DNA from: an uncultured Eubacteriaceae bacterium
GTDB lineage: Bacteria > Bacillota > Clostridia > Lachnospirales > CAG-274
NCBI GenBank assembly: GCA_947086655.1
Contig: CAMTZM010000002.1
Coordinates: 62,001 to 126,000, forward strand
Direction: 5' to 3'
Length of the DNA stretch: 64,000 nt
The notes under the pieces were generated by a model, which saw only the letters and a list, made by a program, of their open reading frames with translations, was not told the DNA's origin and did not search any database. Shown piece after piece: positions 33,784 through 46,428 of this stretch (positions within the stretch are counted from its first letter, which is position 1; each line of letters opens with the position of its first letter). Made by a program: the position numbers and the translations under genes.

Positions 33784-33848
33784 AAAAAAAAGAAAGGATT
33801 TATCATATTTAATTAATTTTAAGTTATATGATAATCCTTTCTTTTTTT
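33784..33848 (+). terminator. Terminator after the APH-like gene
   Basis: Long A-rich/T-rich arms AAAGAAAGGATT and AATCCTTTCTTT are extended by ATCATAT/ATATGAT pairing, ending in seven T. Confidence 0.85.
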
Positions 33849-33910
33849 ATTGCAAATAATGTAAATTTATGATAGTATTAATGTGGTTTAATTTTTTATA
33901 AAACGTGAAA

Positions 33911-33934
33911 AGTCAAAGACTATTCGCATTTTTG
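33911..33934 (-). repeat. Dispersed intergenic repeat B, copy 3 (reverse)
   Basis: Exact reverse-complement match of 24 bases to 1062-1085. It lies just before the ribosome-binding site of the DIP1984-family gene. Confidence 0.65.
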
Positions 33935-33955
33935 TTTTTCTGAGGAGGTGTTATT

Positions 33956-34414
33956 ATGAAATTAGCTGAAGCTCTAATTATACGTTCTGATTTACAAAGA
34001 AGAATAGATGAATTAAAACAACGTCTTATAAGAAGTTCAAAAATTCAAGAAGGAGAGTGTCCTCCTGAAAATCCTAAAGAGTTACTTTTTGAACTTGATA
34101 ACTGTACTAATGAATTAACTAATATTATTCAAAAAATATATAAGGCAAATGCTAAGGAAATTATAGACGGCATAGGTACAATAACTGACGCTTTGGCAAA
34201 ACGAGAGGTTTTAATGTTAAAAAGAAATACTTTGTATTCGCTTTTAGCGGAAACATCTATAAGACAAAATCGTTACAGCGGTTCAGAAATAAAGATTTTA
34301 AGTACTGTAAATGTTAGTGAAATACAAAAACAAATAGATGATATATCTGCTGAATATAGATTGTTAGATACAAAAATACAAGAAAAGAATTGGTTAATTG
34401 ATATTACAGATTAA
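33956..34414 (+). CDS. DIP1984 family protein (septicolysin-like annotation)
   Basis: A 152-aa, almost wholly helical, soluble protein. MKLAEALIIRSDLQRRIDEL at the N-terminus and LMLKRNTLYSLLAE in the second half are typical of the DIP1984 family, whose biochemistry is not established. The ATG follows GAGGAGGTG. The stretch directly after it (34433-34518) can fold into a tRNA-like RNA, so an RNA-related role is plausible. I recall this family being discussed with RNA-repair genes but cannot verify that here. Confidence 0.8.
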   Translation: MKLAEALIIRSDLQRRIDELKQRLIRSSKIQEGECPPENPKELLFELDNCTNELTNIIQKIYKANAKEIIDGIGTITDALAKREVLMLKRNTLYSLLAETSIRQNRYSGSEIKILSTVNVSEIQKQIDDISAEYRLLDTKIQEKNWLIDITD

Positions 34415-34432
34415 AAATTTTTATGGAATAAC

Positions 34433-34518
34433 ATTAAAAGGCGAGCGTAAGCGATTGGCATGAAATGTCAGAAATTATGTTGGTGCGCATGGGGCTGCGT
34501 GGGTTCGATTCCTTTAAT
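34433..34518 (+). ncRNA. Candidate tRNA-like structured RNA downstream of the DIP1984-family gene
   Basis: This stretch has an end-closing stem (ATTAAAAGG at 34433-34441 with CCTTTAAT at 34511-34518, one bulge). It has a 6-bp hairpin TGGCAT/ATGTCA with a GAA loop (34456-34470), a CGCA/TGCG hairpin (34486-34499), and a perfect T-loop sequence GGGTTCGATTCC (34501-34512). There is no acceptable anticodon arm and the T-stem is weak, so it is not a normal tRNA. A YrlA/Y-RNA-like molecule or a decayed tRNA are the alternatives. The rest of the 249-base gap holds a long hairpin at 34614-34652. Confidence 0.45.
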
Positions 34519-34613
34519 TACAGTTAGGCCCATAAATGTTACATTAGAACAAATACGGTTTATTATTTACTACCAAACGCTGATTTTAATGTTAGGGCGG
34601 GTTTGGGGAAACT

Positions 34614-34652
34614 ATTATTTTAGCCCTTATATTTTATAAGGGCTAAAATAAT
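34614..34652. terminator. Long hairpin between convergent units
   Basis: A perfect 17-bp stem (ATTATTTTAGCCCTTAT and complement) with a five-base loop, between the tRNA-like region and the convergent mannitol-dehydrogenase-family gene. There is no clean T tract, but the position suits a bidirectional terminator. Confidence 0.6.
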
Positions 34653-34663
34653 GTTAAATATAT

Positions 34664-46023: not shown

Positions 46024-46095
46024 CTAGGCTAGCAGGATTCGAACCTGCGGATGACGGAATCAGAATCCGTTGCCTTACCGCTTGGCGATAGCCCA
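46024..46095 (-). tRNA. tRNA-Gln, anticodon CTG
   Basis: A 72-nt cloverleaf. Anticodon loop TTCTGAT on a 5-bp ACGGA/TCCGT stem, T arm GCAGG-TTCGAAT-CCTGC, and a matched acceptor with one G-U pair. CCA is not encoded. Last gene of a four-tRNA operon inside the element. Confidence 0.95.
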
Positions 46096-46117
46096 TTAAA
46101 AATATTAAAAAAATAAT

Positions 46118-46189
46118 CAGGGCTGGCAGGATTCGAACCTGCGAATGCAGGGATCAAAACCCTGTGCCTTACCGCTTGGCGACAACCCT
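46118..46189 (-). tRNA. tRNA-Gln, anticodon TTG
   Basis: A 72-nt cloverleaf. Anticodon loop TTTTGAT on a CAGGG/CCCTG stem, T arm GCAGG/CCTGC, 7-bp acceptor. CCA not encoded. Confidence 0.96.
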
Positions 46190-46206
46190 ATACTTATGTT
46201 ATGAAA

Positions 46207-46278
46207 AGCACGAGACGGGATTCGAACCCGCGGCCCTCGCCTTGGCAAGGCGATGCGATACCACTTCGCCACTCGTGC
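46207..46278 (-). tRNA. tRNA-Gly, anticodon GCC
   Basis: A 72-nt cloverleaf. Anticodon loop TTGCCAA on a TCGCC/GGCGA stem, acceptor GCACGAG/CTCGTGC fully paired. CCA not encoded. Confidence 0.96.
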
Positions 46279-46281
46279 ATA

Positions 46282-46364
46282 TGCAGTTGGGGGGACTCGA
46301 ACCCCCAAGGTCTAGGACCACTAGATCCTTAGTCTAGCGCGTATGCCAATTCCGCCACAACTGC
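46282..46364 (-). tRNA. tRNA-Leu, anticodon TAA
   Basis: An 83-nt tRNA with the long variable arm of Leu. Anticodon loop CTAAGGA on a CTAGA/TCTAG stem, acceptor GCAGTTG/CAACTGC. First gene of the operon after the promoter. Confidence 0.96.
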
Positions 46365-46428
46365 AAAAAATATTTTTAATCGCTTATGTAACATTTGATT
46401 AACCATTGTTTACCTCGGCGACTTAATT

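Follow-up and report, generated by a model that had tools for sequence, protein, structure and literature searches.

A structured RNA found beside DIP1984-family genes in many bacterial phyla and its probable partnership with the DIP1984 protein

Bacteria have few RNAs that are both large and highly structured and that come with a protein partner of their own, yet several of these RNAs (tmRNA, Y RNA, OLE, and omega RNA) opened a field. Type III antitoxins are also pseudoknotted RNAs. Here we describe a segment 3′ of a DIP1984-family gene that shares features with some of these systems and that, judging from sequence comparison, is probably one copy of an undescribed family of structured RNAs forming an obligate two-part RNA-protein module with DIP1984. 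The segment had been singled out as a tRNA-like RNA whose module recalls bacterial Y RNAs of the YrlA type, with a small RNA partner of the DIP1984 protein and a decayed tRNA gene both considered possible.

The window, that is, the whole stretch of DNA analyzed, comprises 64,000 nt of the forward strand of an uncultured Eubacteriaceae bacterium (GCA_947086655.1, CAMTZM010000002.1, positions 62,001 to 126,000). Positions 33956 to 34414 on its + strand encode a full-length, 152-residue protein of the DIP1984 family (DUF6847; Pfam PF20935, E = 1.2e-48; NCBIfam NF038048, E = 1.1e-49), for which AlphaFold2 confidently predicted a four-helix structure (pLDDT 90.7). The sole significant structural match of this model was PDB entry 3kdq (TM-score 0.9), the solved Corynebacterium diphtheriae member of DIP1984/DUF6847, deposited as functionally unknown. 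Fold comparison revealed no nuclease fold in the model, no known RNA-binding domain was found in the protein, and a weak, coiled-coil-prone match to the N-terminal arm of SerRS appeared in 2 of 18 family members. Neither the 3kdq entry title nor the open-access literature that we searched names an RNA partner for DIP1984, DUF6847 is not mentioned in the open-access literature searched, and the locus is absent from papers on Acinetobacter small RNAs as far as their main text, the part covered by the search, is concerned. Between an APH-like gene and DIP1984 lies an AT-rich inverted repeat with a T tail (33784 to 33849) that is likely a terminator, so that DIP1984 probably has its own promoter within approximately 33850 to 33955; a promoter scan of the region did no better than chance. 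Elsewhere in the window, a cluster of four tRNA genes (Gln-CTG, Gln-TTG, Gly-GCC, and Leu-AAG) occupies 46024 to 46365 on the − strand.

A covariance model (R1) built from 22 copies of the RNA, the window copy being one of the training rows and many of the other copies found being none, matched positions 34419 to 34610 of the + strand (112.6 bits; E = 8.1e-33, such E-values being rough). The match, ~190 nt long, begins 4 nt past the DIP1984 stop codon. The span originally proposed, 34433 to 34518, was therefore too narrow, the conserved RNA being more than twice as long, with the hairpins recognized at that time making up its 5′ half. Those hairpins lie where they were placed: TGGCAT-GAA-ATGTCA at 34456 to 34470, GCGCA-TGGGGC-TGCGT (P4) at 34485 to 34500, and the T-arm-like GGG-TTCGATT-CCT at 34501 to 34513. 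As was also claimed, the segment has no anticodon arm, and searches with ARAGORN and Rfam were negative. The first hairpin occupies the slot of an H-type pseudoknot (PK-A) of most relatives; PK-A itself is unconvincing in the window copy (p 0.22), which has a plain hairpin there. The predicted closing stem fared less well in that the local AT-rich stem is not conserved, but a conserved long-range helix, P2, does exist, its 5′ strand (AGCGT, 34444 to 34448) pairing with a 3′ strand (ACGCT, 34577 to 34581) that lies beyond the end of the predicted segment. In a second long-range pairing, PK-B, the GGGC in the loop of P4 (34492 to 34495) pairs with GCCC at 34528 to 34531. Both P2 and PK-B are formed in the window copy, which places it in the DIP1984-associated RNA family.

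The remaining parts of the window copy lie toward its ends. A proposed helix, P1, would join the 5′ GG of a GGU(AGC) motif (34425 to 34426; the third base of the motif is A in the window) to ACC at 34572 to 34574; GGU/ACC is nearly invariant in relatives and shows no covariation, and because of this invariance we keep P1 only as a proposal. The 3′ domain (34519 to 34574) consists of ~7-nt units (YNA plus ~4 nt) and ends in TTTACTACC, and it is followed by a G-rich tail, AGGGCGGGTTTGGGG, at 34594 to 34608, which reads GAGGGYGGGNNNGGGG in most relatives. Beyond the RNA, an AT-rich inverted repeat read from the sequence (GCCCTTATA/TATAAGGGC, 34614 to 34654) is a possible transcript end; a terminator scan of the + strand did not flag it. 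The folding energy of the segment did not differ significantly from that of shuffled sequences (z 0.27), which is unsurprising for a pseudoknotted RNA, for which the minimum free energy is uninformative here.

Across 32 aligned RNAs, 91% of the cells of the proposed structure pair, compared with 78% in shuffled alignments and 33 to 45% when one strand was slid. P2 is paired in all 50 RNAs of a larger alignment, where AU, UA, GC, and CG all occur and 75 cells carry double changes; because the model used for fitting this alignment contains P2, the alignment favors the helix, but P2 had first been spotted by eye in unaligned sequences. In the 32 RNAs, P2 is likewise paired throughout, double changes occur at all five of its pairs, and sliding or shuffling destroys the covariation. 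PK-B, which is absent from the covariance model, is 99.2% paired in the same 32 RNAs, with double changes at three of its four pairs, and PK-A is found in ~25 of the 32 (mean score, 21.6 versus 10.2 for shuffled sequences). P4 varies on both sides, its register differing between copies. An alternative pairing of GGCGA with AUGCCC was considered and dropped, because the partner with which GCCC covaries is the loop of P4. Variants found in the T arm and in the two long-range pairings, P2 and PK-B, include G-U in 16 cells and A-C in none, which points to + strand RNA as the paired molecule and away from DNA or the opposite strand. Furthermore, in six of seven close pairs the RNA is better conserved than the DIP1984 gene, and the downstream flank decays to 0.25 to 0.62 identity. 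These comparisons indicate that selection acts on the RNA read from the + strand.

The T-loop hairpin proved to be a variable component. A single slot holds it in 28 of 56 RNAs, from several phyla (shuffled RNAs, 0.8%), and elsewhere the slot is empty or holds a GNRA hairpin, as in Curtobacterium and Frondihabitans, among others. Because GNRA loops, like T-loops, are tertiary docking motifs, a structural contact is a likelier role for the hairpin than imitation of tRNA toward tRNA enzymes, and tRNA mimicry, resting on an optional hairpin exchangeable with GNRA, is not the defining feature of the family. In the 3′ domain, sequence identity among 59 relatives is raised at lags of 7, 14, and 21 nt (z 7.7, 6.0, and 2.6) and lowered at 4, 11, and 18 nt, and the repeat stretch runs from the P4/T-arm region to CUACC. 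The units are easily read in Microbacteriaceae, as in L060: GCACATC GCAGCCCA GCACCGA GCACCGGT GACGGC GTACAGG GCACATC GCAGAACC. Such equal spacing suggests repeated contact with a protein, and we infer that DIP1984 would make this contact.

DIP1984 genes were gathered from relatives, from the window's phylum, from named genomes (33 loci in a single-protein scan), and from plasmids, and the DNA 3′ of each stop codon was read. With the position of the RNA read directly at ~57 loci and also located with the covariance model, we found the RNA directly downstream, on the same strand, at essentially every DIP1984 gene examined. It occurs in at least nine phyla, namely, Bacillota, Actinomycetota, Bacteroidota, Chloroflexota (Ktedonosporobacter), Cyanobacteriota (Picosynechococcus), Pseudomonadota (Acinetobacter and Paracoccus), Verrucomicrobiota, Campylobacterota, and Fusobacteriota (Leptotrichiaceae), a count that rests on record titles, some of them those of metagenome bins. 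Sequences within all of these counts are related, and the counts are not numbers of independent events. Nearly all copies follow a common plan: GGUAGC, then GGCGAGUAC, a pseudoknot that varies between copies, a hairpin whose loop is GGGC, in many cases the T-loop hairpin, AUGCCCAGCA, the run of short units, CUACC, within a few bases GUACUGA, and then GAGGGUGGGNNNGGGG. The covariance model gave 61 matches over 66 sources, with a copy beside most of the DIP1984 genes collected, and it also found copies outside its training set, such as those of Paracoccus (60.6 bits) and Streptomyces (86.1 bits). The RNA also explains the annotation gap of ~270 to 320 bases that follows DIP1984 in many genomes.

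A search of 299 genomes from the window's phylum turned up DIP1984 in 18 (17 over the cutoff and 1 with a gene cut by a contig end) and the RNA in the same 18, adjacent in all of them. The only further RNA match among the 299 was a lone 3′ half, with 7-nt units and a G-rich tail, behind an unrelated gene (L087, 1567 to 1672 in G310:C23); that genome has no DIP1984 match, and the partial RNA is probably what remains after loss of the module. Among 198 genomes of Actinomycetota, 8 have DIP1984 over the cutoff, and 5 of these gave model matches, all adjacent; of the other three, two (L106 and L107) have an RNA visible on inspection. No RNA was seen at one actinomycete DIP1984 gene with an incomplete frame (L108) or at a weak homologue (L028) that scored below the cutoff. 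DIP1984 is rare in Bacteroidota (1 of 148 genomes over the cutoff). Ten of 12 genomes searched whole gave a match, each with one RNA copy at the DIP1984 gene, and no copy in trans, away from DIP1984, was found in these 10. Both things that the original prediction had looked to, a similar segment after DIP1984 genes in other genomes and compensatory changes within it, were thus found in many phyla. Its suggestion of a small RNA working with DIP1984 is strongly supported by the way in which the segment tracks DIP1984 genes across phyla, this support being confined to the level of gene pairing.

Several loci carry variations on this arrangement. Two genomes (G071, L014/L030; G157, L015/L029) have tandem DIP1984-RNA pairs ~2 kb apart, in which the second RNA has neither the 5′ GGCG motif nor a G-rich tail, and another contig (G023:C62; L003 and L009) has two diverged modules in opposite orientations ~15 kb apart. 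In Microbacteriaceae (L060 to L066), GCGGUGC pairs with GCACCGC in an additional stem that surrounds the entire RNA, G-rich tail included, and that likely marks the ends of the RNA. DIP1984 was found in 371 plasmid records, and in Acinetobacter baumannii the module sits on small plasmids, strain AB5075 being one of the carriers. In the RNA on p2AB5075 (L032), the G-rich tail is missing and an outer stem, TGAACATACTG/CAGTATGTTCA, closes the structure. DIP1984 genes of Acinetobacter plasmids are sometimes annotated as “septicolysin,” an identity for which neither the sequence nor the fold of DIP1984 offers support.

The constant adjacency of gene and RNA would also be expected of a cis-acting 3′-UTR element, in which case DIP1984 or a ligand would bind the RNA and so control how stable the DIP1984 mRNA is or how strongly it is expressed, the RNA having no separate action. 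Indeed, the RNA always comes right after the gene and on its strand, there is usually one copy per genome, and none was found in trans. Nevertheless, its size, its two or three pseudoknots, and a cross-phylum conservation at least equal to that of the coding sequence make this reading unlikely, if still credible, as autoregulatory 3′ UTRs are usually less large, less structured, and less conserved than such an RNA. The neighbors of DIP1984 are unrelated to one another and include no conserved downstream gene, and therefore the RNA is not the leader of the next gene; they also share no common defense gene, which bears on the proposal that this is a toxin-antitoxin or defense module whose RNA neutralizes or guides DIP1984. 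Patchy spread, the plasmid records, the tandem copies in G071 and G157, and a pseudoknotted RNA resembling type III antitoxins would all fit that proposal, but we consider it quite improbable: PADLOC gave no match for the window protein and noise-level matches only for relatives, the protein has no nuclease fold, the RNA follows the gene rather than preceding it, and no copies were found in IMG/VR phages. A defense-island reading was likewise set aside after a scan of the neighbors turned up nothing consistent. Protein scans and a pattern scan of the IMG/VR phage contigs were empty, and the module therefore resides on chromosomes and plasmids; phage carriage was rejected, the few “phage” records with DIP1984 including contigs of 232 to 305 kb of bacterial look.

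A DNA element, such as a recombination or replication site with a folding single strand, is suggested by the short direct repeats and palindromic GTAC units of the 3′ domain and by the presence on plasmids; it is very unlikely in view of the G-U but not A-C variants and the fixed orientation to DIP1984. The idea that the RNA belongs with the bacterial Y RNAs, which arose from a T-loop hairpin beside another hairpin in less than 90 nt, did not hold up and has become exceedingly improbable. The Ro/TROVE domain (PF05731) is absent from the window's own genome, the T-loop is missing from half of the family, so that there is no constant tRNA-like module, and Rfam 15, which may or may not hold a YrlA model, gave no match for the window or its relatives even at lax thresholds. 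The T-loop, GGTTCGATTCC, is likewise what points to a decayed tRNA gene, an origin with virtually no probability left and excluded by conservation and covariation, as the RNA recurs with compensatory changes in many phyla; moreover, neither ARAGORN nor RF00005 reported a cloverleaf with an anticodon arm and acceptor stem. Each family considered was contradicted by at least one of its defining features that was tested, and the RNA is accordingly filed under no known family.

The reading that we prefer is thus an RNA and a protein that work as a pair. Transcription of DIP1984 would continue into the RNA, so that the transcript carries it at the 3′ end, and the RNA would then be set free or persist as a stable species. 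Its 5′ pseudoknotted domain (P2, PK-A, P4, PK-B, and the T-loop or GNRA hairpin) would form a compact core, and the predicted DIP1984 binding site is the 7-nt-spaced 3′ domain and/or this core, giving a ribonucleoprotein (RNP). A more specific picture, to which we give about an even chance, is of an undescribed, horizontally spread DIP1984-RNA RNP of many phyla in which an exchangeable T-loop/GNRA docking hairpin sits on the pseudoknotted core and the 3′ domain is coated by DIP1984 subunits. As the module is patchy, usually single copy, set among unrelated genes, and plasmid mobile, our best guess is an RNP with an accessory role in stress or RNA handling that acts in trans, on a plan that may be comparable to that of Ro with Y RNA, and that it is neither a phage gene nor part of a known defense system. 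An RNA conserved in at least nine phyla is tied to a protein that has a solved structure (3kdq) and whose function was left unassigned in the deposit. If the RNP reading is true, it would provide the first function for DUF6847 and an RNA class missing from Rfam, and carriage on small A. baumannii plasmids, including in AB5075, makes both the existence and the function of the RNA directly testable.

Compared with known systems, the DIP1984 RNA resembles Y RNA (YrlA) with Ro/Rsr in being a small RNA that has a T-loop hairpin like that of the tRNA elbow and adjoins the gene of its putative partner, but it has no Ro gene, goes with another protein, has a pseudoknotted core and an optional T-loop, and matches nothing in Rfam. 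With tmRNA and SmpB it shares a T-loop hairpin, pseudoknots, and a small (here putative) protein partner; its T-loop hairpin is internal, however, no acceptor stem or tag frame was recognized (an ARAGORN tmRNA search and Rfam found neither tRNA-like ends nor a tag frame in the window RNA), and DIP1984, unlike SmpB, is a helical bundle. The type III toxin-antitoxin RNAs (ToxI and similar) are also repeat-bearing pseudoknotted RNAs beside a small protein gene, whereas the DIP1984 RNA follows its gene, has a repeat unit of ~7 nt, and accompanies a four-helix protein that lacks the ToxN-fold endoribonuclease and has 3kdq as its only significant fold match.
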